NCBI GenBank assembly: GCA_964017235.1
Contig: OZ024933.1
Coordinates: 8,621,962-8,685,961, forward strand
Reading direction: 5' to 3'
Source: Sabellastarte sp. h YS-2021
Lineage: Eukaryota; Annelida; Polychaeta; Sabellida; Sabellidae
DNA: 64,000 nt
The notes beneath the pieces were generated by a model. The model searched no databases, had not been told where the DNA came from, and saw nothing but the letters and a program-made list of their open reading frames with translations. Numbering within the stretch: the stretch's first letter is position 1; each line of letters opens with the position of its first letter. Shown in pieces: positions 7,295-62,200 of the stretch. The position numbers and the translations under genes were made by a program.

Positions 7295-7604
7295 GTAAGT
7301 TTTTTGGCTTCCTATTTTTGTAATTTTTTACACATACACTTTGATTTTATGTTGAACTAAGCGCTTCTATAAACCTTTTTTATCATGTTTTTCAGCTCCG
7401 CGGGCAAACAAGAGATCGGTTTCGGGTTCAGAGGACAGTCCTTCTAAAAAGAAGTACGAAGTCGCACCGCCCGAAACCAAATACTACGAAGTCGAGTCGT
7501 TAGGTTCGCGTAGTTTCGCGTAGGTGGTTAAAATTTCATTCTTCTTTTTTGTATGTAGGGTCCGTACACTACACTAGTCTAAATTTTCTTCTTTATTTTT
7601 ACAG

Positions 7605-10600
7605 GTAAAGTACTCAGGGAACATACTTTCCGTATAAGATTCCGGGAGGAAGTCAACGGGATACAGATACGCGACCTCGGCACCGAGCTTCTCGAGATGT
7701 TCAATGAAGTCATTTGTAGGGGAAGCCAAGACTACCCGCGGGACGCTGTGGCCCGTATGTACATTGTTGCTGAAAACCTGAGCAACCCCATTATTGTCAG
7801 GCCGAGGCCCCTCAGTGAAATGACAGCAGAAGCTGTCCTGGAAGCCGTGATGGCTGCCTTGAACAGTAACGAAGGGATCCTCGTGACTGACAAATTTCAA
7901 ATCCAACTGGGCATCGCTCAATTTGAAAGAGGGAGCGGTCCTAAAAAAGCAATAGTCAATGTAGAAAAAGACTCTAAAGCCAAAAGATCTATCGTTACCA
8001 TTAGCAATAGAGACCATCTTTGTTTAGCCAGGGCTATAGCCGTGTGTCTCACTCACTGGGAAGTGGTCAACGCGAAAACCGACTCGGCAACACGAGAAGC
8101 CAGAAAGGCATATAACAATATGAGAAAAGGGGACCAAAACCGTAGGAATATTCAGCAGAAAAAGATGGCTCTACAGTACCACGCATTAGCCGGAGTCCCT
8201 ACAGACCGCCCATGCTCTTTGGCCGACATTTCAAAGTTCGAAGAAGCTTTGGACGTCGACGTATACGTGTTCGTGGCGCATGTCAACCAAAGAATCGTGT
8301 ACCCCAACTATGAGAGACCGCAAAGGGAGAAGAGGGTGTACTTGTTTTACTCCAAACAAGATGAAATGGAAGGCCATTTCGACACCATCACAAAAGTGCC
8401 CTGCTTCGTGAATCGAAGTTACTTTTGTCACAAGTGCCTCAAGGGGGTCCATTCCAGGGACAATCACATTTGCGAAGAGTTTTGCCGCACCTGCATAAGG
8501 AACAGTTGTCTTCAAGACCGAGTCACTGTCTGCGATGATTGCAATATGCAATGTCGCTCAAAAGAGTGTTTCGACCACCATAGAAAGAGTAAAACCATCG
8601 GAAAAAAGGAGATTCCCGCACCCTGCAGCGTCTATTATAAGTGCAAAACCTGTAAGACTGTCTTACATACCTCAAAGAGGAGCAAGAATGATCACCACTG
8701 CTGGGAGTTTAAATGCAGATCCTGCGATGAGTACTACGTAGGAGAACACTTGTGCTATCTCAGGATCAGGGATCCGAAGGACAGACCGTGCAAGTACGTG
8801 TTTTTTGACTTCGAGTGTACCCAGGAAAGCGGAGTCCACGTGCCCAACTTTGTGGTTGCGCAGACTGTATGCAGAGTCTGTATGGATGAACCTTGCACTA
8901 CAGATTCTAGATGTCATTCGTGCGGGACCAGATGTCATCTCTGCAACCGCCTGGATACCAAATCCGGAGAGTATTCTGGGGAACCCTGCGATGGCTGCGC
9001 CAAGAGGGAGGTCATCTTTTCAGGCCCCAACACCCAGAATCTGTTCGGAGAGTGGCTTTTCAATAAGGAAAGGAGCCGGTTCACCGCACTGGCCCATAAT
9101 GGCAAGAGCTACGACAATTATTTCTTCTTGTCATATCTGGTCCAAAACGGATCAGTTCCCAAGTTGGTCTATAATGGATCCAAGATCATGCTCATGCACC
9201 TGGAAAAAGGTTATGATATCAGGGTCTTGGATTCGGCCAATTTCCTGCCCATGCGACTGGCCGCTCTCCCAAAGGCATTCGGGCTGAAAGAGCTAGCCAA
9301 GGCTATTTCCCTCATTATTTCAATACCACTCAGAATTGGAATTACAAGGGTCCCTATCCACCAGTGGAAGACTATGGCATAGATTCCCTGTCTTCATCGG
9401 ACCGAGAGAGCTTTATGCAGTGGTATACCGAGCGGACGGATGAGTTCGATTTTCAGAAGCAGATGCTCTTGTACTGTAGGAACGATGTACAATTGCTGAG
9501 AGAGGCCTCCATGAAATTTCGAGATTTACTCATAGGTATCACCGGAGACTCCGATCCTCAATCCCAAGAAGTCGGGAGAGCCATTCAAAACGGATTGGAC
9601 CCATTTGCTTACCTTACAATCGCATCCGTCTGCATGAACGTGTTCGGAAGCAAATTCCTCACAGAGACGCACAAAATAGCTACCCCAGAAGCCAAAGATG
9701 AGGTCATCAGACCCGGAAAGACGGAGGCGATAAAAAAAGGAAATAAGTTTATGTAGCAAAATCTCGATTCAGTGGCTAGAATGGGAGTCTCACAAGCGCA
9801 GAGTTATGATCAGACACGCCTTAAATGAGGGAGAGGTCAGATTTCCTGCCCCTAGTGGTAGGTACTACAAGCTGGACGGATTTTACATCAATCCAGTAAC
9901 CGGTGAAAACGTATGCTTAGAGTATAACTCTTGCGTGCACCACGGCTGTCTTTGTCAAGACAGAGAGTCCATGGATCCTTATAACAAACAATCCATGGCC
10001 CAAAGATATGCCCGAACCATGGAAAAGGTGAGGGTCCTGGAAGAAGCCGGAATTAAAGTGATTACGAAATGGGACCACAAATTCAGACGCCAGTTGAAAA
10101 ACGATCCGGAGTTGGTCGCGTTCGTGGAGACCTTGGATCTAGAGGAAAGACTGGAACCCAGGGATGCCTTCTTCGGGGATAGAACCAATGCCGTGAAAAT
10201 GTATAGAAAGGCCGAAGAGGGAGAAAAGATAAAATATGTCGACTTTACGTCTCTATACCCCACTGTCAACAAATACGACCGATACCCGATAGGCCATCCG
10301 ACCGTCATCACGTCAGAATTTGCAGATATCCGGAACTACTTCGGTATTGCCAAAGTAAAGGTGCTGCCTCTGAATGATCTCTACCATCCCGTACTCCCTG
10401 TTCGGTGCCACGGAAAGCTGTTGTTTCCACTGTGCAGAACCTGCGCCGAAAACAAGAACCAGGAGGGCTGTTCCTGTTCCGACGAGCAGCGCGTCTTGTT
10501 GGGGACCTGGACCACTCTGGAAATTCGGAAGGCAATAGATAAGGGCTACAGAATAGTTCGCATCTACGAGGTGTACCACTGGTCAGAAAGTACCCAGTAC

Positions 10601-11585
10601 GACCCGCGGACTGGTAAACGCATTTCTCAAGGTGAAACAAGAGTCCTCAGGATGGCCGGAATGGTGCAAGACCCAGCGGGACGAAGATGCCTACCTCTCA
10701 TCCTACGAGCGTAGAGAAGGAATTGCTTTGGCGAGAGAAAAGGTCCAGAAGAATCCAGGCTTGCGGTCCCTTGCCAAATTATGCCTAAACAGGTAAATAT
10801 ATTTATATACTAGCTTAACTTATGCGTGTATATAATTGTTTAAAATAATGGCTCACAATAACTCTAAATGTTTTTCTTACAGCTTCTGGGGCAAATTTGG
10901 CCAAAGAGAAAATCAGAGACAGAGCCTCATAGTCTCAGAATAAGCAGAATTTCTGAGGATTCTCAGCAGCACGGACAAAGAAATCCTGGACTGGCATATC
11001 ATTAGACAGGACTTGGTGCAGGTGGACTGGAGATATGCCAGAGGCTACCTCGGCGAAAATGCGATGACCAACGTCTTCCTGGCAGCCTTCACGACCGCAC
11101 ATGCAAGACTGAGGCTGTATGAGGTGCTCGAAAAGTTGGACAGGAAAGTCTTGTACTTTGACACGGATTCGGCTGTCTACGTCATCAAAGAGGGCGAAGA
11201 AGAACCCCCTGTGGGTGACTTTTTGGGCGAGCTTACGGACGAGTTGAATGGTAAACATATCGTCGAATTCGTCTCGGCAGGTCCCAAAAATTATGCCTAC
11301 CTCCTGAACGATGGAGACACCCAGTGTAAAGTAAAGGGCTTTACTCTTAACCACCAAAATGCCAAGAAGATTAACTTTAGGACTATGTGTTCGGAAGTCT
11401 TTCTCTGGCATTTTCACGGCAACACGCTGGGGACGAAGCTGGAAAATTCATGGCAAATATGCAGAGATCCTAAAACTCAAAATGTGTACAATCGACGGCA
11501 ATTGAAGTCGTATTCCGTCGTGTATGACAAAAGGAGGGTCTTGGCTAATATGGACACTGCACCCTATGGCTACGTAGATTATTAA
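7605..11585 (+). pseudogene. polB: Protein-primed DNA polymerase B, broken
   Basis: The exon follows the acceptor TTTTTACAG at 7604. Long frames are 7607-9382, 9364-9756, 9806-10714 and 11013-11585. Domains in order: a Cys/His-rich zinc region (about 8425-8750); exonuclease motif I (FFDFEC, 8800s), motif II (HNGKSYDN) and motif III (YCRNDVQLL, 9475); a VSR-like insert (EYNSCVHHGCLC, 9920s); polymerase motif A (VDFTSLYP, 10240s); motif B (KLCLN then WGKFG); motif C (YFDTDSAVY, 11156); and KVKGF. A 90-base GT-AG intron (10793-10882) splits motif B. Lesions are a one-base loss near 9301, a frame change near 9750, a small deletion near 10615 and an in-frame TAA at 10941-10943. The catalytic Asp pair is still encoded. 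The family makes the element's DNA copy from a protein primer; this copy cannot make a full enzyme. Confidence 0.9.
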
Positions 11586-11794
11586 GTTTATTCTTGTTTG
11601 AACATAATGTTATCTTTTGTCCATCATTTCTTTTTTTCGTTATTGCATTATTCTTTAAAAATTGTTATTTGATTTGTTATTTAATTTGTGATTTGATTTA
11701 TTTGATTTGTTATATAATTTGAGATTTTATATCAATAAAATGAACTGCGATATGTTTTGGTCTTTATTAGTCTTAACCAAACTTTATTTGCGAG
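11586..11794. other. AT-rich spacer after polB
   Basis: No gene is seen. TTGTTATTTGATTTG-type runs recur. The minisatellite begins at its 3' edge. Confidence 0.5.
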
Positions 11795-12440
11795 CACTTA
11801 GCAGCCATCCGGAGCCATTTAAGAGCTATCCAGAGCCATTTAGGAGCTATCCGGAGCCATTTAGGAGCTATCCGGAGCCATTTAAGAGCTATCCGGAGCC
11901 ATTTAGGTGCTATCTGGAGCTAATTAGGAGCTATCCGGAGCCAATTAGGAGCTATCCGGAGCCATTTACGAGCCATTTTAGAGCTATCCAGAGCCATCCG
12001 GAGCCATTTAGGTGCTATTCGGAGCCATTTAAGAGCTATCCGGAGCCATCCGGAGCCATTTAGGTGCCATCCGGATCCCCTCTGGAGCCATCCGGAGCCA
12101 ATTAGGAGCTATCTGAAGCCAATTACGAGCCATCCGGAGCCCCTCCGGGGCCATTTAGGAGCCATTTAAGAGCTATCCGAAGTCATTTAAGAGATATCCG
12201 GAGCCCCTCCGGAGCTATCCGGAGCCATTTAGAAGCTATCCGGAGCCAATTAGGAGCTATGCGGAGCCAATTAGGAGCTATCCCTAGCCATCCGGAGCTC
12301 CTCCGGAGCCATTTAGGAGCCATTTAAGAGCTATACGGAGCTATCCGGAGTCATTTAAGAGCTATCTGGAGCCATTTAGTAGCTCTCCGGAGCCATTTAG
12401 GAGCCCCTCCGGAGCCATTTAGGAGCCATCCGGAGCCACC
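11795..12440. repeat. GAGCCATTTAGGAGCTATCCG minisatellite
   Basis: About 640 bases are built from 9-15 base modules such as GGAGCCATTTAG, GAGCTATCCG and CCCCTCC, joined in irregular order. Nearly every unit contains CCGGAGC or GAGCCATTT. The frame at 11707-12063 (repeating SYPEPF) is a by-product of a repeat unit that is a multiple of three. It separates the polymerase from the capsid-module genes. Confidence 0.9.
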
Positions 12441-12548: not shown

Positions 12549-13313
12549 ATGACCATAATGAAAATGTGTAGTGAATGCGATAAAAGCTTTTCTAAAGGCT
12601 ATAATTACAAGAGACATATTCAGAGGTTTCACAATAATCATTTTGGAAAGGAAGCTGTACCCTTACCTTTCAAAGAGGCATCCACAGCCTGCGTATGCGG
12701 AGCAACCAAAAGTGGAAAAACTACATAGTTCTTTCGCTTACTTAGGAACAAGAATGTCATGTTTTCGGAACCAGTAAACAAAATATTGTATTGTTACGGT
12801 ATCTACCAAGATACTTTCGACAGCATGAAAAGGGAAGTGGAGGGTATAGAATTTCTAGAAGGCATACCGAGTCGGGCTGAAGTAGAAAATTTTGCGGATG
12901 GAATGCATAATCTCGTGATTTTGGACGACCTCTCAGAAGGCGTGGTTAAGAACCCGGATATGGAAAAGTTGTTCGTTCAGGGAGCACACCACTCCAATCT
13001 TAGCGTGTTTTTTGTTAGTCACAATTGTTTCAGGCAAGGCAAATGCACGAGAACTATAGCCTTAAACACTCATTACACGGTTTTGTTTAGAAATATAAGG
13101 GATGGGCAACAGATATCCGCATTAGGAAAACAAATGTTTCCGGGCAATAATAAAGCATTAGTGGAGGCGTACGAGGACGCTACTTCTCGTAAATACGGAT
13201 ATTTGGTGATCGATTCCACGGCTAATGGCGATGACGCATACAGGTTGAGAACCAATATATTTCCGGGTGAAGATCCTTTGGTCTACGTACCGATAAACTA
13301 TAAAAGGGACTGA
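12549..13313 (+). pseudogene. C2H2 zinc finger + packaging ATPase, in-frame stop
   Basis: One continuous frame of 255 codons is broken only by TAG at 12726-12728. The N-terminus has a C2H2 finger (C7, C10, H23, H28; CSECDKSF...HIQRFH). A Walker A motif GATKSGKTT (residues 51-59) is followed immediately by the stop. Beyond it come Walker B (LVILDDLSE, about 12915) and the sensor-like SHNCFRQGK with TRTIALN, typical of the FtsK/HerA-type genome-packaging ATPases of Polintons, adenovirus-like and giant viruses. The family pumps DNA into the capsid. The length and order fit an otherwise complete gene. The start was chosen at 12549 because it includes the finger; an ORF at 12571 in another frame is a shadow. 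Readthrough of TAG cannot be excluded but is not needed, since neighbouring genes are also broken. Confidence 0.88.
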
Positions 13314-14046: not shown

Positions 14047-14232
14047 ATGAAGATCGGTTACATCTGTCGAATAGCTGTGTGTTTGGTGGTGGTAATAGCT
14101 GCCTTGCTCGATCCCACTGGAAAGGGATTTTGGTTCGGTATATTACGACATTGTTTACAGCTGTTAAACAGGGATGACCCCATGGAAACAGTTTCTGGAG
14201 AAGAATTACTTCGATCCGGGGAATCCAGCTAG
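14047..14232 (+). CDS. Possible small membrane protein, 61 aa
   Basis: MKIGYICRIAVCLVVVIAALL gives a strong hydrophobic N-terminus (residues 5-21). The reading frame then overlaps the start of the integrase fragment by about 60 bases in another frame. It could be a real short membrane protein, or the leader of the integrase region could be shifted. Only the hydrophobic segment supports it. Confidence 0.3.
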   Translation: MKIGYICRIAVCLVVVIAALLDPTGKGFWFGILRHCLQLLNRDDPMETVSGEELLRSGESS

Positions 14233-15028
14233 TTTTGCGGGACCGCATAAGTTATATCGCTACTTGAAAGAAGAGGGTAATTTCGATGTGACGAAGAACC
14301 AGGTGGCAACTTGGCTAAAAAATAAAGACGCATACAGTTTACATCGCCAGTCGCGTAAACCAAAAAGACGTAGCAGAGTAGTGGTAGAAGGAATAGACAG
14401 TCAAGAACAAAACGGGTAAAGAGGTCAAAGCCGCTTTAGAAGATAATTTTCGAAAGGGGCGCAAACCTAAAAAGTGCCGTTTCGGCCAAGGAAAAGAATT
14501 TTCTAATAAGCAAGTACAAGGGCTTTTGAAAGATGAAAAAATAGAATTTAATCTTATAACTATAGCTATCATAGAACCATAGGTATGCCCCCTGCGAGGG
14601 TGGGTCAGAGTAACGAAAGATCGGTCTGGTGGTATTCCTATTGGCCTGAAAAGGACGAAAATTTCCGGCTGAAACCTTATAAGTTTAAAGTAGGCAATAA
14701 CGTAAGAGTTACTCACACTAAAACCCTTTTCGACAGGGAATACGATTTCAAGTGGACCGGTGAGATATTCAAAATAAGGGCGCGTTATAAGAGGGATGGA
14801 ATCAATGTGTATCGTTTAAAAGAGTTTTTGGACGAAGATATAAAAGGAAGCTTCTACGAAGCCGAATTGCAGAAAGTGGAGCAAAGCGACGAAAATAGAA
14901 AGTGGAAAATTAGCAAAGTGCTAAAAACGCGTAAAACTAAAGGTCGCAAAGAACATTTGGTAAGGTGGTTGCATTGGCCCAAAAAATTTGATTCTTGGGT
15001 GACCGATAAAGATTTGAAAAGTTTATAA
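14174..15028 (+). pseudogene. Retroviral-type integrase with chromodomain, shattered
   Basis: Three collinear pieces are visible. Piece 1 (14174-14419) is the N-terminal region, with KQFLEKNYFDPGNPASF, LYRYLKEEG and DAYSLHRQ. Piece 2 (about 14405-14560, another frame) is part of the RVE catalytic core, with TGKEVKAALED, GRKPKKCRF and GQGKEFSNKQVQ. Piece 3 (14560s-15028) starts with SYHRTIG and continues as the C-terminal DNA-binding region, with YKFKVGNNVRV. It ends in a chromodomain (residues like ISKVLKTRKTKG, HLVRWLHWPKKFDSWV). The first part of the DDE core is absent, and the usual Asp before GKEF reads Gly. This family inserts Polintons into host DNA. This copy has lost catalytic residues as well as the frame, so it cannot be active. 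Confidence 0.88.
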
Positions 15029-15031
15029 GAG

Positions 15032-15439
15032 ATGTTTCTCTACATAGGCTGGCAGGATTCCTTAGAGGTTCACCCTTTCAACAGACCTAACGATTTTATC
15101 GTGGATTTGCCAAAAAGTTTGCTTTTACAAGGAAAGCGGGAGGTAGCCTTGACGGATATTAAAGTAAGGGCTCCAAAGAAATCTACTTTTTATGTATTAG
15201 CGGACTTTTGCGAAGAGAGTTTTTTAAAGGGAAGTCAGTACCCTGTGTTACGGAGAGTGGATGGGAAAGAGGCTCAATATACGCTACCATATTTCATAGA
15301 AACAAATAAATCAGAGGTGCGGAGTATAAGATTGAGTATTCTCGATCAAAACTTAAAACCTTACCAACTGAGCGATATTGAGTGTACCTTGTATCTAAGG
15401 AAAAAATATGTGGATACCCAAAGGTTACCATCCGTTTAA
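15032..15439 (+). CDS. Minor capsid (penton-like) protein, 135 aa
   Basis: The frame is intact and starts three bases after the integrase stop. Its early segment NRPNDFIVDLPKSLLLQGKR followed by VALTDIKV matches the start of the single-jelly-roll penton/minor-capsid proteins of Polintons (a D/N-F-x-V-x-L-P strand, then E/K-V-x-L-x-D/E-I). Such proteins form the vertices of the icosahedral shell. The next gene overlaps its last ten codons. The length is on the short side for the family, so the final strands could be missing. Confidence 0.72.
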   Translation: MFLYIGWQDSLEVHPFNRPNDFIVDLPKSLLLQGKREVALTDIKVRAPKKSTFYVLADFCEESFLKGSQYPVLRRVDGKEAQYTLPYFIETNKSEVRSIRLSILDQNLKPYQLSDIECTLYLRKKYVDTQRLPSV

Positions 15440-15776
15440 ATTAATCAGCCCGGTGCAACAGCAAACTGAAATGGCTGAAATGTTGGTCAAAAGGAAGAGA
15501 GGAACGGGAAAACCTGTTTAGAAAAAGAAGACGGGAATGAGAAAACCGGCACAGAAAAAGAAAGCTGGAACGAGAAATCCAGCACAGAAAAGGAAAGCTG
15601 GAACGAGAAAACCGGCGCAGAAAAAGAAAGCTGGAACGAGAAAACCGACTCAGAAAAAAAAGAAGACTGGTAATAATAGCGTAAATAAAAAACCAAAGAG
15701 GAAGAATACAACAGTCAAGAGGGTTAAAAAGTCTATAAGAGGTCGAAGGACGGTGCGAAAAGATATATTTTCGTGA
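15408..15776 (+). pseudogene. Basic core-like protein with 11-residue repeats
   Basis: ATG 15408 lies inside the end of the minor-capsid gene. The frame is open to 15776 apart from TAG at 15519-15521 (codon 38). The body is a near-perfect tandem repeat of an 11-residue unit (KKKAGTRKPAQ) in four copies, followed by a Lys/Arg tail (KRVKKSIRGRRTVRK). The composition and the place between the penton and hexon genes resemble adenovirus core proteins that condense DNA in the virion. The stop overlaps the capsid start as TGATG. A shorter frame after the stop (15537-15776) retains the repeats and could still be made from a downstream start. Confidence 0.72.
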
Positions 15777-16998
15777 TGGAGGTATACAAATCTAATTTGC
15801 ATTTGTTCGGAGAGACCCATACGGATTCTTTCATTGAAAAAACGGAATGGATTCCCTATGCCCCTCAGGGCGTGATCGGAAGAAATGCTCCCTTAGAATT
15901 TGATTTAAATAGAAGTAGATTGAGAGTGGGCCTACGCATCATAACGGGTGAGGATAAACCTGTGACCGAAGCGGACAAAGTATGTTTAGCAAACCTTGGA
16001 TTGCAAAGTTTGTTGAGACAAGTAGACATCGAGTTAAACCAGAGGCTGATTACCGCAAGCGTGGGCTCTTATTATCCTTACAAGGCGTATTTAGATGCCC
16101 TTTTAAACAGTAACATCGGAGATACCAAGGGAATTTTAAATAACGAACTATTCCATAAAGACTCTTATGACGCAATGGATAGCGACTCGACCAGTAATAT
16201 TGGGTTCAACCGAAGGTACAAACGGACAAGTAAAGGTAATACTGTCTTTTTAGAAGGCCCTATTAGAATGGATATTCGTCAACAAAAGAAATTTATCATC
16301 AATGGTATTAGAATTTGTATGAAACTTTACCAGTATGAAGATCCTTTTCGACTCATGGCTGAGACTACCGACGACTACAAAGTTGAAATACAATACGCCT
16401 CTTTGAGAGTCTGTCAGGTGAAACTAAGCCCTGCTATGGTGGTAGCGCATGAAAAAAGAATACCAAAGCAATGCGCCGTGTACCCGTTTTGGAAGTCCGA
16501 TTTAAAAGCTTTCAATATAGAAAAGGGAAGTTACGGGTGGTCTGCTGAGGACGTGTATCATGGGAGCATACCCTCTGAGATAAAACTAGTGTTGTGCAGC
16601 GGAAGCGCATTCAATGGTAATTACTCTGAAAATCCCTTTAATTTTAAAAATTACCAATTAAATTTCGCAGAGGTTATGGTAGATGAAGTGTCCGTTCCAT
16701 CTCAAGCTATTACCCCTAACTATACCAATGGAGATTTTTCTGAAGCTTACTGGACCCTGATGTGCAAGGAACCTAGATATGGTCGGTGTATAGAATTAAA
16801 GAATATCCCAACGGTTACTGCATATACATATTTAGAATTTTGGGAAGAGTAGGCGGGGATGTGGTAAATCAGAAGAAATGCAGGCATACCAGAATCAATT
16901 TAAAATTTGCCAAGGCTTTAGAAGAAAATGCTACTGTCTTGCTGTACGTATCTTTTCCAGCTGAAATAAGAGTGGATGCTGCCAGAAATATCCTATAA
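15776..16998 (+). pseudogene. Major capsid protein (double jelly roll), C-terminus broken
   Basis: ATG 15776 overlaps the preceding TGA; the main frame runs 358 codons to TAG at 16850-16852. The N-terminus reads SFIEKTEWIPYAPQG, then PLEFDLNRSR. GPIRMDIRQQKKFI, YQYEDPFRLMAE and VYPFWKSDLKAFNIEKGSYG follow. This order matches Polinton hexon-like capsid proteins that form the shell. The usual last segment, here TRINLKFAKALEENATVLLYV and a basic end, is encoded downstream in another frame (about 16890-16998). It comes after the TAG and a TAA, so the C-terminal strand has been lost. The same lesions are present in the duplicated copy. Confidence 0.85.
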
Positions 16999-17045: not shown

Positions 17046-17513
17046 ATGTATACGAAGTATTTCTAGATTTTCTTTTGGATACGCGGGTTTTATTGCAAAC
17101 CTTGTGGTGAACCAGCGGTGTGTCGATGCTACGAGTCTCTGAGTTTAATATCCTGTAAAGAAATAGAAGAGTTTCCGAGATTTAATAGTTCGGATATATG
17201 GAATATTGATATACTGGATATTGTTAATAGCAGCTTATCCCAAATACCGGATTTAGATGACTGGCCTAATCTTGCTATGTTAAATTGGATTGGCAATAGG
17301 TATTCCAGTTGTAGAGAGCTGGAGGGATGGAGCAGCCATATCTACGTGAATAGCGATTGTCTAAGAGACTCTCTATCTACGATTGAAATAATGGAAGGTA
17401 ACGAAGTTTTCTTGTGGCCATTCTTTTTAACATTCATTCCGTTTTCGCTTCTGGGTTTAGTAGGAGGTTGTCGGATAATATACCAGTATATCAAAAAACC
17501 CTTGCTCATTTGA
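17046..17513 (+). pseudogene. LRR transmembrane protein of the element, copy 1
   Basis: ATG 17046 is followed by TAG at 17064, then a long frame to 17513. After the stop a hydrophobic stretch leads into cysteines CKPCGEPAVCRCYE and ISC, the pattern of an LRR N-terminal cap. An LRR-like segment (LDIVNSSLSQIPDLDDWPNL, then MLNWIGNR) and two further cysteines (SSC, SDC) follow. A C-terminal membrane span PFFLTFIPFSLLGLVGG and a short basic tail close the protein. It reads as a secreted-pathway single-pass membrane protein whose signal peptide is now interrupted. It lies between capsid and TBP genes on the same strand. The architecture is close to the cellular gene at 993-1921, suggesting capture from the host or descent from a common family. 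Function is unknown. Confidence 0.6.
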
Positions 17514-17560: not shown

Positions 17561-17761
17561 ATGGCTAAGTTAACGCATCGAGTGCTTTACAGCGATTTGG
17601 GATGTCCATTAAATCTGCAGGATATGGCAGAAACGAAGATCGACATCAAGTACCATTCTTTGCCGTTTGAAAGATTATTGTGGAGACACAGGAAAATCGG
17701 ATGCACTTGCATGATTTATTCTACCGGAAAAATTAAACGGAAGGTACAAACGGACAAGTAA
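17561..17761 (+). pseudogene. Truncated TBP-like gene, duplication junction
   Basis: Identical to the first 58 codons of the complete TBP-like gene at 19089, then diverted at 17736 by the duplication junction into capsid-gene sequence read in another frame (ending KRKVQTDK). It keeps only most of the first TBP repeat and is expected to be non-functional. Confidence 0.9.
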
Positions 17762-18573: not shown

Positions 18574-19041
18574 ATGTATACGAAGTATTTCTAGATTTTC
18601 TTTTGGATACCCGGGTTTTATTGCAAACCTTGTGGTGAACCAGCGGTGTGTCGATGCTACGAGTCTCTGAGTTTAATATCCTGTAAAGAAATAGAAGAGT
18701 TTCCGAGATTTAATAGTTCGGATATATGGAATATTGATATACTGGATATTGTTAATAGCAGCTTATCCCAAATACCGGATTTAGATGACTGGCCTAATCT
18801 TGCTATGTTAAATTGGATTGGCAATAGGTATTCCAGTTGTAGAGAGCTGGAGGGATGGAGCAGCCATATCTACGTGAATAGCGATTGTCCAAGAGACTCT
18901 CTATCTACGATTGAAATAATGGAAGGTAACGAAGTTTTCTTGTGGCCATTCTTTTTAACATTCATTCCGTTTTCGCTTCTGGGTTTAGTAGGAGGTTGTC
19001 GGATAATATACCAGTATATCAAAAAACCCTTGCTCATTTGA
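18574..19041 (+). pseudogene. LRR transmembrane protein of the element, copy 2
   Basis: Same as copy 1 including the early TAG (18592). It has two differences: Arg to Pro near the N-terminal hydrophobic stretch and Leu to Pro before RDSLSTIEI. Domains are as in the first copy. Confidence 0.6.
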
Positions 19042-19088
19042 AGATATATACGGAAGAGAGTTTGGTTTAATGATCAGTTCGAGTCCAG

Positions 19089-19568
19089 ATGGCTAAGTTA
19101 ACGCATCGAGTGCTTTACAGCGATTTGGGATGTCCATTAAATCTGCAGGATATGGCAGAAACGAAGATCGACATCAAGTACCATTCTTTGCCGTTTGAAA
19201 GATTATTGTGGAGACACAGGAAAATCGGATGCACTTGCATGATTTATTCTACCGGAAAAATTATTTGTCACGGAGGGAAAGAACAAATGAGACAATACGC
19301 AAGGCTAGTGGAAAGAATGGGATATCCGGTAAGGATGAAGAAAATCAAAACGCTTACTATGAGTGCGTTATATACTTTACGAGGAAAAGTAGACTATTGC
19401 AAAATAGTACAATGGATGCAAGGTTCTTATGAACCGGAAATCTTTCATGCTGTGGGCTTACATTATACCATTTATAAAAGCGGTAAAACGATTGTGACTG
19501 GAATAAAATCCGAAAAAGATTTGGATAACAAAGTTAATGCTGTTTTACTAGAGTTAGAAGTGTTATAA
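19089..19568 (+). CDS. Divergent TATA-binding protein (TBP) homologue, 159 aa
   Basis: The protein shows both halves of the TBP saddle. The first repeat (about residues 8-80) has DLGCPLNLQDMA, the spacing YHSLPFERLLWRHR, then MIYSTGKIICHGGK and MRQYARLVERMGYP. This aligns position by position with the first repeat of eukaryotic TBP (NLGC, RF-x-x-V-I-M-R-I-R, IFSSGKMVCTGAK, KYARVVQKLGFP). The second repeat (about 88-158) has YEPEIFHAVGLHY, IYKSGKTIVTGIK and a final helix. DNA-intercalating Phe positions read Phe36, Tyr53, Phe119 and Tyr129. The second repeat is several residues shorter between Phe119 and SGK, so one strand or loop is reduced. The length equals the conserved TBP core with no N-terminal tail. 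The frame is intact. It follows the LRR gene and precedes an A-rich spacer. It probably directs RNA polymerase II to element promoters; alternatively it could compete with host TBP. Confidence 0.87.
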   Translation: MAKLTHRVLYSDLGCPLNLQDMAETKIDIKYHSLPFERLLWRHRKIGCTCMIYSTGKIICHGGKEQMRQYARLVERMGYPVRMKKIKTLTMSALYTLRGKVDYCKIVQWMQGSYEPEIFHAVGLHYTIYKSGKTIVTGIKSEKDLDNKVNAVLLELEVL

Positions 19569-19657
19569 AAGTACAGACAAAATACAAAAAAAATAAATAA
19601 AAAAATACAAAAAATAAATAAAAAATACAAAAAAAATAAAAACAAAATAAAAAAAAG
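19569..19657. repeat. A-rich low-complexity spacer
   Basis: The stretch consists of (AAAAATAAATAAAAAATACAA)-like repeats without a gene; a minus-strand frame here is composition only. Confidence 0.7.
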
Positions 19658-19864
19658 ATGGAGCATGTCAGATATCACCCTAGTATCGCAAAGTATACGT
19701 ATACAATAGAATATTTGGAAAAATTACCCAGCAAGAAGAAATATGCGGATGCCAAAGAGTGTGCAATGGCTGGATTACAGTACGGTCAAGCCAGATTCGG
19801 TAACAACCTAATAAATGTGAGAGTGCTAAAAGATGGTCAAGTGATAGAATCCTGGCAACAATGA
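19658..19864 (+). CDS. Small unknown protein, 68 aa
   Basis: The intact frame begins MEHVRYHPSIAKYTYTIEY and contains AKECAMAGLQYGQARFG and VRVLKDGQVIESWQ. It is mixed charged, with a probable beta-alpha-beta pattern and no membrane segment. It is the last plus-strand gene before the convergent minus genes and is followed by three hairpins. No family is recognised. Confidence 0.5.
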   Translation: MEHVRYHPSIAKYTYTIEYLEKLPSKKKYADAKECAMAGLQYGQARFGNNLINVRVLKDGQVIESWQQ

Positions 19865-20019: not shown

Positions 20020-20799
20020 TTATAGGGTCTCTCGGAACAGCAGTTTGTGGTCTTCGGGAATAGTCTCTAACACTGGTAGGGTAGTTTCCTCCAATGGCGC
20101 ATATTCGACTTCTTGTAGTCCTAAAATCTTGAAAACTTTCTCGACGTTTTCTGCCACGTTACTTAAAGAAATCAAATGCAAGTAATTTTGTTCTGTGTCT
20201 TCTTCTAAACAGCTATGGTCCCTCTGTCCCGGCATGTCGTATTGACAACCATAACAGTGCTCTCTGACTAGATCCGATGCTGTCTTTTGGGTCATATAGG
20301 CTCTAACGAGTCTGACCAGTTTCTGTTTGTCCGGGACAGGAGCCTTTTTCTCGGTTATAGTGTAGGGCCACCCTTCCTGTTCGGCGTACTGCTTCAGAGA
20401 AGTCCTGGAGAAGAACGATTTAGGAGATCTGTGCTCAGTGCTGTAAAGGTACTTGGTTATGGTAGGTTCAGGAGGAATGTTTTCTTTATCCGCCGGTGAG
20501 AAAATCTCGAGGGCTTTCTCTTGAAACTCTTTCCATTGGTTTTCGTCCAAATTGATGTACAGATTATTCCTCTTAAAGCAGACGTACATCTTGCCGTAAA
20601 AAGGAAGCGTCTCCAGGTTAGATTCTTTAGTAAGTTCGAACTTGAAATTTTGTTCATTCTTCAGTGCCTCTGTTACGTGATGGAATTGATTTGAGAGCTT
20701 CTTCCAGATGTTATTGGAAAAGCAAATGTAACGGTTGTTTTTGCTGAGACGCACAAAAGTAGTCTCATTGAACTTACTCTTTTCTGCTGTCAATTCCAT
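20020..20799 (-). CDS. Two-repeat protein, possibly PC4-like, with Cys/His tail, 259 aa
   Basis: The start at 20799 (MELTAEKSKF) was chosen over an upstream in-frame start because a TATA box (CTATAAATA, minus strand) lies only about 30 bases above it, inside the longer frame. Two similar segments occur: residues 15-46 (FVRLSKNNRYICFSNNIW, then KKLSNQF) and 72-100 (YVCFKRNNLYINLDENQW, then KEFQEK). The x-x-x-I-N/S-L/F-x-x-x-x-W-x-x-L/F pattern resembles the end of the PC4/p15 single-stranded DNA-binding fold (ISLNPEQWxxL). A Ser/Pro linker follows. A motif HCYGCQYDMPGQRDHSCL (C182, C185, H195, C197) may bind zinc. The frame is intact. PC4 is a transcription coactivator that cooperates with TBP and TFIIA, so pairing with the element's TBP is suggestive. 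Family assignment is tentative. Confidence 0.5.
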   Translation of the reverse strand: MELTAEKSKFNETTFVRLSKNNRYICFSNNIWKKLSNQFHHVTEALKNEQNFKFELTKESNLETLPFYGKMYVCFKRNNLYINLDENQWKEFQEKALEIFSPADKENIPPEPTITKYLYSTEHRSPKSFFSRTSLKQYAEQEGWPYTITEKKAPVPDKQKLVRLVRAYMTQKTASDLVREHCYGCQYDMPGQRDHSCLEEDTEQNYLHLISLSNVAENVEKVFKILGLQEVEYAPLEETTLPVLETIPEDHKLLFRETL

Positions 20800-20819
20800 G
20801 TTTGCCACCCGAATGCTGC

Positions 20820-21060
20820 GTTGCGATGTATTTATAGAGATGCTCATCAATTTTATAATCGAATACCTGCTTCTGATTGGTGTGACGCTAAATCCAGCAT
20901 TTTGACCATAATTCATGCAATTTGTTTGGCGTGACAATAAGACAGGGTGCTTCGCTTGGTGGGACCATAATTCCTGCAATTTGATTGGTGTGACAATAAG
21001 ACAGGGTGCTTCGCTTGGTGGGACCATAATTGCTGCAGTTTGATTGGTTGGAAGAAAAAA
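20820..21060 (-). promoter_or_regulatory. TATA promoter with repeated CCAAT modules
   Basis: On the minus strand CTATAAATA (20837-20829) is preceded upstream by tandem modules of about 59 bases (copies near 20931 and 20990). Each contains CCAAT or CCAA (ATTGGTGTGACAATAAG on plus) and GGGACCATAATTCC. Related modules lie by the left TATA promoter (3937-3990). The longer reading frame through this region (to 21027) is repeat-driven. Confidence 0.6.
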
Positions 21061-21092: not shown

Positions 21093-21410
21093 TTAAAATA
21101 GTCCGTGTCCCTTGGTAGGACATAATCCGTTGATGTCGGTGAACTTGTCGGGAACTGTCATCAGAAGGTAATGGCATCCTTTACTGTGCTTCAGGTGCTC
21201 TTCGTAAGCGCTGTCTCTAGTTTCGAAAGAGTACAAAGTAATGCTACACCAGGGACAATGTACCTTGTCAGCATAGCCAGTATAAATAAATCCTGCATGC
21301 GCTAATTCTTTGGCAGTGATAGGCATGGCTTTTGGCCATGTATTAAAGGTTGCTATTCTAGACGAATAAAGCAAATATTTAGTATGCTTCAACACAGAGA
21401 AATCTTGCAT
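21093..21410 (-). CDS. BIR-domain (IAP-like) protein, 105 aa
   Basis: A complete baculovirus-IAP-repeat is visible. It has R18-x-x-T-F with W25, LAHAGFIYTGYADKVHCPWC, then C52, C55, H72 and C79 with exact C-x2-C-x16-H-x6-C spacing. The usual Trp after the second Cys region is Phe62. The domain fills almost the whole protein; there is no RING or second BIR. In animals and large DNA viruses single-BIR proteins bind caspases or IAP antagonists, and others act in cell division. An anti-apoptotic role during replication is inferred. It overlaps by 22 bases, in another frame, the end of the upstream 60-aa frame (21389-21571), so both could come from one transcript or from one frameshifted gene. Confidence 0.85.
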   Translation of the reverse strand: MQDFSVLKHTKYLLYSSRIATFNTWPKAMPITAKELAHAGFIYTGYADKVHCPWCSITLYSFETRDSAYEEHLKHSKGCHYLLMTVPDKFTDINGLCPTKGHGLF

Positions 21411-56200: not shown

Positions 56201-59200
56201 CTGAGGAACACCTGTCCTTTGATTGGCTGCTAAGAGTGTCCAATAGTGAGAATTTTGACAAAAATGCCGGCTTAAAGATTAACAAAGGTAACAGAACTGC
56301 ATTGTAGAATCTATTCTTAGAACAGCTGTATATGTTGGGACAGTGTAATATTACATACCAAGGGAACATGGAATTGACGACCTTGGGAATTGTAAAAAAT
56401 ACAATGTCACAAAATGGATGAAATATTTGAGAAAACACACATTTGTCTTTTTGAATGGACCCAAAGGGCACAATAATTAAGATTTATAGAAATATAGAAA
56501 ATAGGTAAAGTAGAACAGTCCTGTATCAAGCGATGTAGGTTGTTTTTTTTTCGTTATTTTATTTTTTTAGGTTGTTATTTTACTAATTATGAAGAGTCAG
56601 TTATAATCTTATAAGATCATTGATGTAGTGGTTACCGCAGATATGGATAATGTCAATGATTGCGGGATCAACAACCTCATTCTCTGGGATGATGACCTAT
56701 GAATACACACAACCAAACACATTTTACTTTCTTTTTCATTTAAGTAGGCACAATTATAAGTCCAACAAGAAACCATAATGCCCCTGTTCCACCAAAGGAT
56801 TAAGGCCCGATCCTGTCGGCGACCCTTAATCGTGGACAGTCGGTGGAAAAAATGCAAAAATAGGCGGGAATACTGGGTCGGTTTTAAAGTCTGGGATTAA
56901 GAACAAATCGGCCCCAGGAAACCTCAGGACGCCTCAGGCGGCCCCAGACAGTCCCCGACTGGTCTGAGACTAAGAACCGACTAAGCCACGTTTTGGGTCG
57001 GTTACACCCGCGATCCTGTCGCAGACAAACCGACCGGGTCCCAGGACGCCTCAGGCCGCCTGGGACTAAGCCCCGGCTAACACACAATTAACTCCAGGCC
57101 TCCTCAGACTTCCCCAGACCAGGATCGCTGATTCTTGTTTTTGAAAAGTTGCTCGATTTTCGAGGTATATATATATAAAATCCGCAATCTAATATCATTG
57201 CTTTTCTGGGAACACAGCAGGATGCCACCTTTTAATGGAGGACAGATTCAACAACAACTTAGGGCTTTTTTGGTTTTTATTCAGTTACAAATAATCATGT
57301 ATTTTCAATTTCTACATCGACCACAGCAACCACCAGCACCACCACCGCCAGCACCCATACAGAGACCTAGAAGAAGGCACAACATGTGGGTCAGGCTATG
57401 GCTACTACAGAGAGAGTAGAGGGGGGCCTACCACAACATTATGGCTGATCTGTATGCTACAGACATTCCAGGATTCACCAACTACATGAGGATGACCCCA
57501 GAATTTTTTGAAATGATTAAGACCAGACTGGAACCACACCTAGCCAGGCCGGCCACCAACTACAGAGCACCAATCAGTGTTGGGGAGAAGCTAGCCCTCA
57601 CAATCAGATATCTGGCCACTAGAGAGTCCTACACATCATTGTCCTGTCATTTTAGGGTTGGAAGATCCACCATTTCCAAGTTTATACCAGAGGTCTGCAG
57701 GGCCATCCAGGATGAGTTCACCAGAAAGTACCTCAAATGTCCTACTACCCCCAGATGAGTGGAAAGAACTGGAGAGGGAATTCAGGATCAGGTGGAATGT
57801 TCCACATGCCCTGGGAGCTCTGGATGGGAAGCATGTGGCCCTGAAGAAGCCCAAGAACACTGGAGCCCTCTACCACAACTACAGGGGTTCTTTTCCATTG
57901 TGATGTTGGCCCTGGTAGATGGGCAGTACAAGTTTAGATGGGTGGATGTGGGTACAGAGGGATCTTGCTCAGATGGCCAGATATTTAATGCCTCTCAGCT
58001 GAAGAGGAAGATTGAAGATGGCAGGATAGGCTTCCCTGACCCATCTCCTATAACCCAGGGTGGTCCAGATGTCCCCTACTTAATATTGGCAGATGTTGCC
58101 TTTGCCCTGAAGACCTGGCTCATGAAACCCTATGGCAGAAGGATGTTAACAAGAGAGGAAAGGATTGCCAATTATAGAATTTCAAGGGGCAGGAGAGTAG
58201 TGGAGAATGCTTTTGGCATCCTGGTGTCAAGATTCAGGGTGATGAGGACCACCATTGAACTACCCTCAGCAACAGTCAGAGAAGTGGTCTTGACCTGTGT
58301 GGTTCTACACAACATACCGAGAAGCCAATATCAAGGTCAGCAGCCTGGGGAGGACAATGATGATGATGTGCCTGGTGATTGTGGATTGATTGGTGGTGCT
58401 ACTGGTGGTGGCCAAGACAGAAACCCTGCCAGAGAGGCCAAGAGACAGAGGGATTACCTGAAGGACTACTTCAACAATGAGGGAGCAGTGGCGTGGCAAG
58501 ATGGTTGTAATCATTACTGCTGCAGTAATCAGTCCTTATCAGGACTAAAAAACAGTCCTTTTCAGGACTAACAGTCCGTTTCAGGACTACCAAATATTCC
58601 AAAAACAATTAATAGCTATGGTTGCTACAGACAAACCCCATGCCAAACATAACTTGTACCAACGCACAAACAGACAAACCCCATGCCAAACATAACTTGT
58701 ACCAATGCACAAACAGACAAACCCCATGCCAAACATAACTTGTACCAACGCAAAAACAGACAAACCCCATGTCAAACATAACTTGTACCAACCCACAAAC
58801 AGACAAACCCCATGCCAAACATAACTTGTACCAACGCACAAACAGACAAACCCCATGCCAAACAGAAGTCACCCAACTCACAAACAGACAAAACCAGTGT
58901 TAAACAATATTCTCAAAAACAGGACACAAACCCCTACATAAATTGCTAAGTAGAATAAATATTGCATATAATATGGAAGCTACACACTCATTTAAATTAA
59001 TTTGGGTTTTATTTTGCAAATAGATTTGAAGCAGAAATGGGGGCCACGGTGGCAGAGTGGTAACACTCTCGCCTCCCACCTCTGAGGCCGGGGATCGATC
59101 CCCATACGGGCTCAAGTGGGAAAGCTGGTAGTTGCTTGCCGTTGGTTGGCAGTTTACAGTACACAACCCTAGCGAACTCTATGTACTGGTTTCCTCTGCC

Positions 59201-62200
59201 CTTCCAACTACCCGTCGTGATATGACCTGTACAGTGTTGAAAGGGACGTTAAATCCCAAATAAAAGAAACAGAAATGTTTGCCTGGAAATCTTAAAAATT
59301 AATTCTTCTACCCTACTTGACAAATATTTATTGGATATAACTACTGAACTGCTTTTAATAATGGGAAATTATGTTTGCAAAGCAGTTTGTCAGTTTTTTC
59401 GTTTAGGTTTTGTTTGCTATGTTTTTCAGTGGGTTGGTCAGTGAATTGGGGGTTATGTTTGTCAGTGGGTTTGTCTGTCAGTTGAGGGTTATGTTTGGTA
59501 TTGGGTTTGTGTGTTTGTGGGTTGGTGAGTATGTGACAAGGCCTTTCAACTCTAGGGAAGGTGTAAGTGTTGGACTTTGCAATTAAATATTTTAAACTAT
59601 CCCATGGATTTTAAGCTAAAAATGGGCTGATTATTGGCCATATAGGGAGATTTTTTAAAAATTATTTTCTATGTGGCCTTTTTGTTATGTGTGGTACCAT
59701 GGGCTATTTACTTCATGTTTTGGGAGGTGTAAGTGTTGAACTTTACTGTTTTTTGTTTTGTGATAAGTATTTGTACTGAACTTTTTTGTTTTGGGAAGGG
59801 AATGTGAACTTGCAGCTTATTAATTGTTTTTGGAAGATTTGGTGGCCCTGAAAAGGGCCTGGCAGGTCAAAGACCTGCCCTAACTGGATGGCTACTGAGG
59901 AGGTTGCTGCTGCTGTTGAGGCGGTGCTGAAGTGGTGATAGTAAAGAGCTGCTGCTGTGGTTGTTGCGGCTGTGGTTGCTCTACGATCTGTGTTGATGTC
60001 AGATCAGGCAGCTGGCTTAAAATTCCACTCAGGTTATGTCTGCTCCCTTCGTCCTGTACAGTTAGGACAGATGTAGGGTTGCTGAAGCCAATGGGGCTTG
60101 GTGTATAGTAGACAAAACTGCTGGCAGCTGCTGTTTGAGTGGAACTGGATGCCTGTTGAGTGGTTGTTGGCAGTATCCCGACCCTCTGCGATTCTGTGGT
60201 AATAGTGGCCGATCTTCTGGGCAATTGCTGACGTCTTCTGTTACTCTTGATACTTTCTATGTCTCTAAATATCTTGCCCTTTAATTCTTGAAATTCTTTT
60301 TGAGTCATCTTTTCAGCCTCTGATACCACGTAGTCGAAGAAGGGCTGCCTGTCAGACTTCTGCTGCAGAAAACCTGAGATAAGTGTCCTCATCTGCTCAA
60401 AATGTTCCAGAATTTTGGAGTCTGTGGTTGAAATGGGCGTAGATGAAATGATGGACTGACTCCTCTCCCTCAGGACACTTGACTCAAGATGTTCTGTGTC
60501 AGTAGTTGACCCACGTGATTCGTCCTGCCTGCTGGTATTTGGACTAGCCTCAAAACCTGAACTTCTGTTGGCCCCCTTTCTTCTGATGTGGGTTTTAAGG
60601 AAACCCATCTGTTGGTACACCCAGGACTGTCTCTTGGTCATCTCCCTCGGAGCTTGGCCAGATTGGAGCTTAGACAGCTGGCCATAACGCATTCGCTGGG
60701 ACTCAAACAAACGTCTCACATCAAAGGGCTGTAGCTTGAGTTCTGCTGCTATTTCTGCCCAGAGAGTCTCTCTTCTGGTCCTGTCATGGAATCTTGGGTG
60801 TTCCTTGTCATACAATTCAGGCTGTTGCTTGACATATTCCACAATGGAAACTTCCTGACTGTCTATAAAAGTGGCACACACCCTAGCTCTCTTGGATGAA
60901 GAATGGCACTCCGGATCATCTTCATGGCACTCCAGTAGACAATAAAATAAAAAAATAGTAAAATGTGTCTCCTAACTGTGAAATTTGCCCTAAGCTCAAG
61001 TAAATAATATATAAAATAAAAACTAAAAACCCCTATAAATCATTGACACACATCTCTCAGTAGCCAGTCAGTAACAACGAGAACGTGTGTGCGGTCGCTT
61101 ATATAGTCCCAGACCCCCTCATTGCCTCGTTTTAATTTCAGACGCGCGGGAAACAGTCAGTTCTTAGTTGGTTGTTAGTCCCAGGCCTCCTGGGGCATCC
61201 TCAGTCTGCCACAGGCTAAAAATGTGTGTTCCCAGGTGTCCTGGGGAGGCCGGTTTGGATTGGTTAGGGTCGGTTACCCTTAGTCGGATCTTAGTCCCAG
61301 ACCTAGATTTTTGGGTCCCAGGACACCGCAGACACTCTGAGGTGTCCTGGGACTAATGCAACCGACTAACTTTCACACGCATGAAATTCTTACGCATCAT
61401 ATTTGAGTCTGGGATTAACAACCGGCCTCCTGAGATTAAGCTATGGAGGTCTGGAATTAAGGGTCGCAGGCGTCCTGGGACAACAACCAACGCTGTAAAT
61501 TTGGGTCTGAGGAGGCCTGAGGACGCCTGGGACTGGACATTTTGTGGGGGGCGGGAAATATGAATCGGTTGTAGTCGTGTGAAATATTAAACATGTTTGA
61601 TTTTTCACACAGCCTCAACCGACAACAACCGACCCTTACAGAAGGTCTGGGACTAAGCAAATATTTGAAACCGACCCCCAAATATCCTTAATCGGGAGCC
61701 TTACTCGTGTGGTGGAACACCCACATAACAACGATGACCATTTGGGTTGCAAAGGAAATCTCAGAGAAAATATAAGGGAGACCGTTTCAGCTAAGTGGTG
61801 GCAGGTTCATTACTCTCCAGATACCTTTTGAATAAATGACATTCTTACAAAGTTGGCGGAGGCATTTAATTCTTACTTCTTCAGTTCTGGCATCAGATAG
61901 CCATAATTATCATTCTGATGTGATATAAACTTTTTCTAAGCTTAACTCCACAAGTGGTGTCATGTGTTTCTCCAACCTCCCACTGGACAGTCTAAATGTA
62001 ACCTAGATATTTGGATATTTTGTAGGAGTAAAGAACCATTTCCATTGTTGCTACATCATGCATATAGATTTTAAGATTGTAATGTGCAATAAAAATCAAA
62101 TAAAATGTTAAATTCAGATCCTATATGTATAGAAAAAGTATTTCGATAGATCCACAAATTTCCATTTACAAGATAAAATATAATTAGCTGTCAAAATCAT

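Follow-up and report, generated by a model that had tools for sequence, protein, structure and literature searches.

The DNA window analysed here, a stretch of 64,000 nucleotides (C7:8621962-8685961 of a 1.786-Gb assembly), carries an element of the Polinton type in which a new and conserved gene codes for a homologue of the TATA-binding protein (TBP). In eukaryotes and archaea, TBP serves as the central initiation factor. Virus TBPs were known before from large DNA viruses, and here TBP is a fixed gene of a clade of small, integrating, transposon-like viruses, present in many near-identical copies within one animal genome. Like Polintons and Mavericks, the TBP carriers have a type B DNA polymerase, an rve integrase with a chromodomain, a putative packaging ATPase and a putative capsid block. 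We call the element Polinton-type rather than a canonical Polinton because neither a protease gene nor terminal repeats were found in the parts searched and its capsid gene is named from position and relatives. The features mapped in the window are collected in Table 1.

Table 1. Features of the Polinton-type element in the window, in order of position.
Feature	Position in the window	Strand	Remarks
Type B DNA polymerase, several frames in the window copy	7583..11585	+	PF03175, 9.5e-15
Packaging-ATPase-type gene, main part	12759..13313	+	Pox_A32 only, E 0.039
Integrase with C-terminal chromodomain, several frames in the window	14168..15028	+	open in L009
135-aa gene upstream of the capsid gene (putative penton position)	15032..15439	+	position rule, from the accessible part of PMC4028283
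Capsid-type gene (MCP)	15773..16852	+	named from position and relatives; no Pfam match and no meaningful PDB match
Cut-short second copy of the TBP start, product of the 1528-bp tandem duplication	17561..17761	+	
TM131, small membrane-type protein gene directly upstream of TBP	18646..19041	+	duplicate at 17118-17513
TATATA box 44 nt upstream of the TBP start	19045..19050	+	sequence; lineage-A box
TBP homologue, 159 aa, both repeats, without 15 nt found in other copies	19089..19568	+	
TATAAAAG box across the TBP stop codon, upstream of the 67-aa gene	19564..19571	+	sequence; box there in 5/5 lineages
P67, 67-aa gene directly downstream of TBP	19661..19864	+	matches no known family
335-aa gene	20020..21027	-	in 20/20 stretches
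BIR-domain (inhibitor of apoptosis) gene	21093..21410	-	PF00653, 2e-20; in 9/20 stretches

The open frame of the window translates into a two-repeat TBP homologue. The Pfam family PF00352 (TBP) matched the protein with an E value of 6e-17 and a score of 61.7 bits (cut-off, 22.9), and did so in two stretches, which indicates two tandem repeats. The human TBP of solved structure was matched by sequence at 4e-13, and a profile built from 11 relatives matched human TBP at 1.5e-24. A single-sequence search with the window protein returned 18 proteins at E ≤ 0.01, its own included (35 candidates), and the profile search returned 373 members at the same threshold (2073 candidates), some of the 120 listed being cellular TBPs. 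PF00352 also matched each of the 24 members of alignment A3, which include one cellular TBP. The profile-profile comparison with eight cellular-type or intermediate TBPs gave an E value of 3e-39 over 164 columns spanning both repeats. Judged by these scores, the similarity of the window protein to TBP lies far beyond chance, and the two Pfam stretches and the long alignment bear out an earlier note on this DNA, which had recognised both TBP repeats. The same note had placed a PC4-like gene beside TBP, and this was not supported: neither the 67-aa gene nor the 335-aa minus-strand gene matched PC4 in Pfam, nor did a profile of the 335-aa gene in the PDB. The 335-aa gene contains a short stretch resembling the mitochondrial protein NDUFS4 (profile E of 0.007 against the PDB; Pfam NDUS4 no better than 0.034), which may be due to chance.

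The window copy of the element is damaged. Its polymerase and integrase are broken into several frames, a direct tandem repeat of 1528 bp has duplicated the TM gene together with a section of the capsid gene and the beginning of TBP, and its TBP carries a 15-nt in-frame deletion relative to the four copies compared, the frame being still open. The residues lost were present in all 10 relatives that read through this region, while 4 further relatives are cut short or shifted there. Since the window copy is damaged, the claims made here for the family rest on other copies. The earlier note had described the second repeat as shortened; this is true of the window copy to the extent of the missing 15 nt, but a large loss is absent from the relatives and from the other copies. 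A strongly shortened second repeat was thus mostly rejected as a trait of the family, as 19 of the 20 other copies have TBP as an open frame of 164 aa. The second repeat of the relatives is a few residues shorter than that of human TBP. The integrase, taken from a copy in which it is open (L009), matched rve (4.7e-13), Chromo (6.2e-5) and Tudor-knot (4.9e-5). The match of the ATPase-type gene to Pox_A32 was weak in a second copy as well (L014, E 0.099). Comparison of the 5' and 3' pieces that were sampled, which stop short of the 5' end, gave no inverted match of the kind that terminal inverted repeats would produce.

A search of the host genome with the window TBP protein gave at least 150 matches (150 of 2684 candidates scored), among which a single copy may appear as two pieces. 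Counted by hand, the matches that span residues 1-159 without a stop number 88 of the 150 listed, the window copy included; some other listed copies are partial or contain stops. Twenty stretches of 9.9 kb were taken around TBP matches, so that TBP is present in them by selection, and therefore the gene order, not the presence of TBP, counts as evidence. This order is integrase, 135-aa gene, capsid gene, TM gene, TBP and 67-aa gene, with the 335-aa gene on the opposite strand. The capsid, TBP, 67-aa and 335-aa genes were matched in every stretch, and the integrase, 135-aa and TM genes in 19 of the 20. Other copies have TBP at the same place as the window, which agrees with the earlier reading of a TBP carried by a Polinton, here a Polinton-type element. 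All the stretches with the BIR gene, which lies at the element's 3' side, belong to lineages A and C. Over 6-8 kb, pairs of copies within a lineage were 98.4-99.75% identical in lineage A (five copies) and 99.0-99.7% in lineage B (five copies), the two copies of lineage C were 99.6% identical, and the pair compared in lineage D reached 93%. Given the near-identical copies in lineages A, B and C, the spread looks recent. Three TBP-bearing pairs are inverted, head to head, at 12-17 kb from each other, and 1.8-6.9 kb separate the ATPase genes of each pair: C7:34623446(-)/34635078(+), C4:60936741(-)/60953935(+) and C6:104915816(-)/104929428(+). These could be palindromic insertions, products of fold-back replication or assembly artefacts.

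The linkage of TBP to the element was tested on loci chosen by the window ATPase instead of TBP (at least 151 matches; 150 of 1731 candidates scored, 150 rows used). Among the matches listed, TBP was found 0-9 kb downstream (median 5.0 kb) of 105 of the 112 ATPase matches with an identity of at least 58%, which belong to one Polinton-type clade, and none of the 38 from other lineages, with an identity of 46-54%, had a listed TBP match within 9 kb downstream or 25 kb on either side. Four of these 38 TBP-less loci were read directly over stretches of 6 kb (L029-L032), and no TBP was found in them (best profile E of 0.11). In three of these stretches a protease-type gene directly follows the capsid gene, and the fourth starts inside one. 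From its HW and C motifs we take this gene to be of the adenovirus type; in Pfam, the one protein compared gave weak matches, below cut-off, to SidE_DUB (0.026) and to the adenovirus endoprotease (0.069). It was not found in the TBP carriers searched, namely, the 20 stretches (L009-L028), two 5' pieces (L033 and L034) and positions 1-26000 of the window (best E of 1.4). Unlike their sister Polinton-type lineages, the TBP carriers thus have the block of TM, TBP and P67 at the place of the protease-type gene. The capsid and integrase trees had 10 rows each, of which 3 were TBP-less, and in both a 100/100 branch set the TBP carriers apart. The TBP, capsid and integrase trees branch alike, A with C and B with D and E; in the capsid tree, long branches were flagged for L032 and further rows. 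The simplest reading of these sequence comparisons would be that TBP was gained once and then inherited with the element.

The host has its own TBP, with canonical exons (L001 and L002), to which the element TBPs are only distantly similar: four of them were 32-36% and 36-45% identical to the two host exon pieces. In a tree of 79 TBP rows, which holds no mirusvirus, NCLDV or other large-virus TBP and in which the host TBPL1-type exon is not placed, the 16 cellular rows, the host among them, were split from the 63 others at 100/99. Nine element rows and three rows from elsewhere formed one 12-row group (96/85) within a wide family. A host retrocopy was ruled out for the family by the exon identities and by this split, and the element TBPs are accordingly no recent copy of the host gene, an origin that the earlier note had named as one outcome that would undo its reading. 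In one relative (P0091), the reading frame of TBP runs on into the beginning of a Polinton-type integrase (1e-10), and in a fragment (P0018), the start of a capsid protein (8e-41) is joined to a piece of TBP. These two joins, seen at the protein level, suggest that TBP travels with such elements elsewhere too. Another relative from the profile search (P0095) is labelled by its source as a Thiodiazotropha MAG, and our guess is host contamination. No virus contig with this TBP was confirmed in IMG/VR, searched with the TBP queries, cellular-type TBPs and the capsid protein, nor was this TBP confirmed in the GTDB genomes scanned; both searches used short exact patterns and do not show absence.

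The nine element TBP genes form 36 pairs, of which 17 gave an NG86 estimate and 19 were saturated. In 15 of the usable pairs, which are not independent of each other, dN/dS was 0.04-0.21, with four of these values unreliable because dS was above 2; two very close pairs gave 0.40 and 0.43. The element TBP protein has been under purifying selection. Its residues were compared with cellular TBPs using yeast numbering and contact roles. Like cellular TBP, a subunit of TFIID and TFIIIB, the element TBP has two repeats that align end to end, with the EPE stirrup that contacts TFIIB, the R and Y of helix 2 and F99 all kept. The TFIIB-contact residue E188 was present in 9/9 element rows and 49/49 relatives, E186 in 9/9 and 40/49, and R137 and Y139 of helix 2 in 9/9 element rows. 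At the intercalating positions, F99 is Phe and both F116 and F207 are Tyr in the nine element representatives, which confirms the earlier observation of two Phe-to-Tyr changes, and the F190 position is Phe in four, Tyr in four and Cys in one. The exon at L006, which we take to be of the TBPL1/TRF2 type, a host paralogue of the same fold family, differs from the element TBPs in having His at this position. Unlike cellular TBP, the element TBP has a shorter loop before helix 2 and is changed at four central minor-groove contact positions in 9/9 element rows: N159 to T (also in 46/49 relatives; this column is less sure, as alignments differ there by two residues), V161 to S (48/49), N69 to H (15/49, with N in 34) and T124 to H (18/49). 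The cellular rows with a letter at the four columns (14 to 16 of the 16) keep N, V, N and T. Since all four positions are changed, it is plausible, as far as residues can tell, that the DNA preference of the element TBP is altered.

TATA boxes (TATAWA) were scanned in the 110 nt upstream of each gene in one copy per lineage (L009, L014, L020, L021 and L025), with 500 dinucleotide shuffles as the control (nine gene sets, nominal P values). P67 is preceded by a box in all five lineages (shuffled mean of 1.04; none of the 500 shuffles as high), and this box is built across the TBP stop codon. Boxes were also found for the TM gene in four of the five (shuffled mean of 0.78; P = 0.004), for the TBP gene in three (0.87; P = 0.034), for M335 in three (0.67; P = 0.016) and for P135 in two (P = 0.078). 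They were few for MCP (1/5) and P128 (1/4), and none lay within 110 nt upstream of INT (0/5) or ATP (0/1). Those found stand 30-73 nt upstream of several genes and are of the ordinary TATA type. At the TM gene, four lineages have the box TATAAAAG at a distance of 40-41 nt from the start; L014 has one at 42 nt, which would bring the count to 5/5, if the first ATG is used, a start that was chosen afterwards. In lineages B, D and E this box shares its sequence with the final codons of the capsid gene, so that constraint on the capsid protein may hold it; in A and C there is no such overlap. Of the TBP-less lineages, in which three genes were examined, L029 and L031 have boxes before none and L032 before all three, which speaks against a strict link between TBP and box.

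These observations are best accommodated, in our view, if the TBP is an initiation factor encoded by the element that directs host RNA polymerase II to element promoters, a reading that we hold to be somewhat more probable than its rivals taken together and in which binding and function are what we infer. In the nucleus, the TBP of an active element would bind the element's TATA boxes with its saddle and bend them, the kept EPE stirrup would recruit host TFIIB, and host polymerase II would thereby be brought to the structural genes and to the TBP gene itself. The changes N69H, T124H, N159T and V161S would favour element promoters over host ones or, alternatively, make element promoters independent of host TBP and its regulators. 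TBP would then probably be kept by selection because it helps turn on the element's own genes. The earlier note had proposed that the element supplies its own promoter-recognition factor, and this gains support from the purifying selection, the TATA boxes in independent lineages and the kept TFIIB-contact residues. Against it counts that TATAAAAG is presumably a good site for host TBP as well, and host TBP could therefore serve the element's promoters. The boxes of the TBP-less L032, the lack of boxes at the integrase and ATPase genes, their scarcity at the capsid gene and P128, and the overlap of the TM-gene box with capsid codons in three lineages also count against it. More tentatively, and with a chance that we put slightly short of even, this would be an animal Polinton-type clade with a private promoter system, formed by its own core TBP with derived contacts and by matching TATA boxes, where its relatives have a protease-type gene. 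On this view, the derived DNA-contact surface would be common to a large family in other sequence sets.

The TBP could instead act against the host, competing for TFIIB, TFIIA or TATA promoters and damping host transcription (e.g., antiviral), with the element genes served by host TBP. Its protein-contact surfaces are kept and its central DNA contacts changed, as they might be in a decoy, a TBP-less lineage has TATA boxes too, and the BIR gene in some of these elements makes host-modulating cargo not unusual. Nevertheless, we consider this unlikely, since a pure decoy would not need the intercalating aromatic residues, which are kept with few exceptions, and several genes in independent lineages are preceded by TATA boxes. 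These boxes, of ordinary TATA type and 30-73 nt upstream of several genes, also argue against a special task at a few sites, such as one late promoter, RNA polymerase III or the element ends in replication or packaging, in place of general initiation. Such a task, to which we give a marginally smaller chance than to an action against the host, would fit the presence of boxes at only some of the genes and the changed central DNA contacts, and TBP also works with polymerase III in cells. Far less credible than either is the reading as a functionless host TBP, captured or retrocopied and carried as passive cargo. The degraded state of the window copy (split polymerase and integrase, tandem duplication, cut-short TBP piece and TBP deletion) and the partial or stop-containing state of some other listed copies speak for it, and the window copy alone may fit it. 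For the family, it is contradicted by the distance from the host exons, by the split from all 16 cellular rows, by the low dN/dS between lineages, by the number of listed matches that are full length without a stop and by the wide family elsewhere.

A virus-type genome with its own TBP is a feature shared with African swine fever virus (pB263R), mimiviruses, CpV-BQ1 and mirusviruses. Unlike in these large DNA viruses, several of which have their own RNA polymerase, TBP is found here in a small integrating element. The closest published parallel that we found for the proposed mechanism would be, by analogy, CpV-BQ1, whose TBP and TFIIB are interpreted, in the accessible part of the report, as redirecting host polymerase II (PMC12085832). 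The parts of the other sources that were available give TBP in 59% of mirusviruses versus 0% of Nucleocytoviricota (PMC10132985), nevertheless name TBPs in members of Nucleocytoviricota (PMC5825884; PMC11464507), and state only 12-15% identity of pB263R to known TBPs (PMC5825884). Eight core genes are listed for vertebrate Mavericks in the portion available of PMC8097293, and TBP is not among them. The literature searched, which leaves out most subscription journals and the main adintovirus paper (PMC8502044), yielded no report of a TBP for Polintons, Mavericks or adintoviruses. A Polinton TBP was not found mentioned in the accessible parts of PMC10675990, PMC11071308, PMC8097293, PMC4028283, PMC10328495, PMC11071296, PMC10132985, PMC5825884, PMC10294476, PMC8905726, PMC12220804, PMC11464507, PMC12085832 and PMC7786948.

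If the proposal is true, these elements show how little a nuclear virus needs to redirect polymerase II, and they provide structure-function studies with a TBP altered by nature, whose central DNA contacts are derived. If the private promoter system is also true, promoter autonomy arose in integrating viruses of about 16-20 kb in which no RNA polymerase gene was seen. The elements also mean that mobile DNA keeps supplying an animal genome with TBP-coding genes, a point of relevance to the possible sources of TBP paralogues.

The window has some further features. The TM gene (17118-17513 and 18646-19041) codes for a protein of secreted or membrane look, with Cys- and Leu-rich repeats by eye and no Pfam match. 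Between the polymerase and ATPase genes (11749-12438) lies an array of 21-bp repeats with up to 28 overlapping matches, which is partly open as a Ser-Tyr-Pro-Glu-Pro-Phe repeat peptide. Just upstream of the capsid gene (15489-15653), 33-bp repeats encode a basic stretch rich in Lys and Arg, which we take to resemble a viral core protein. At 57759-60881, frames presumably resemble, by eye, a Harbinger-type transposase and its MADF-type partner.
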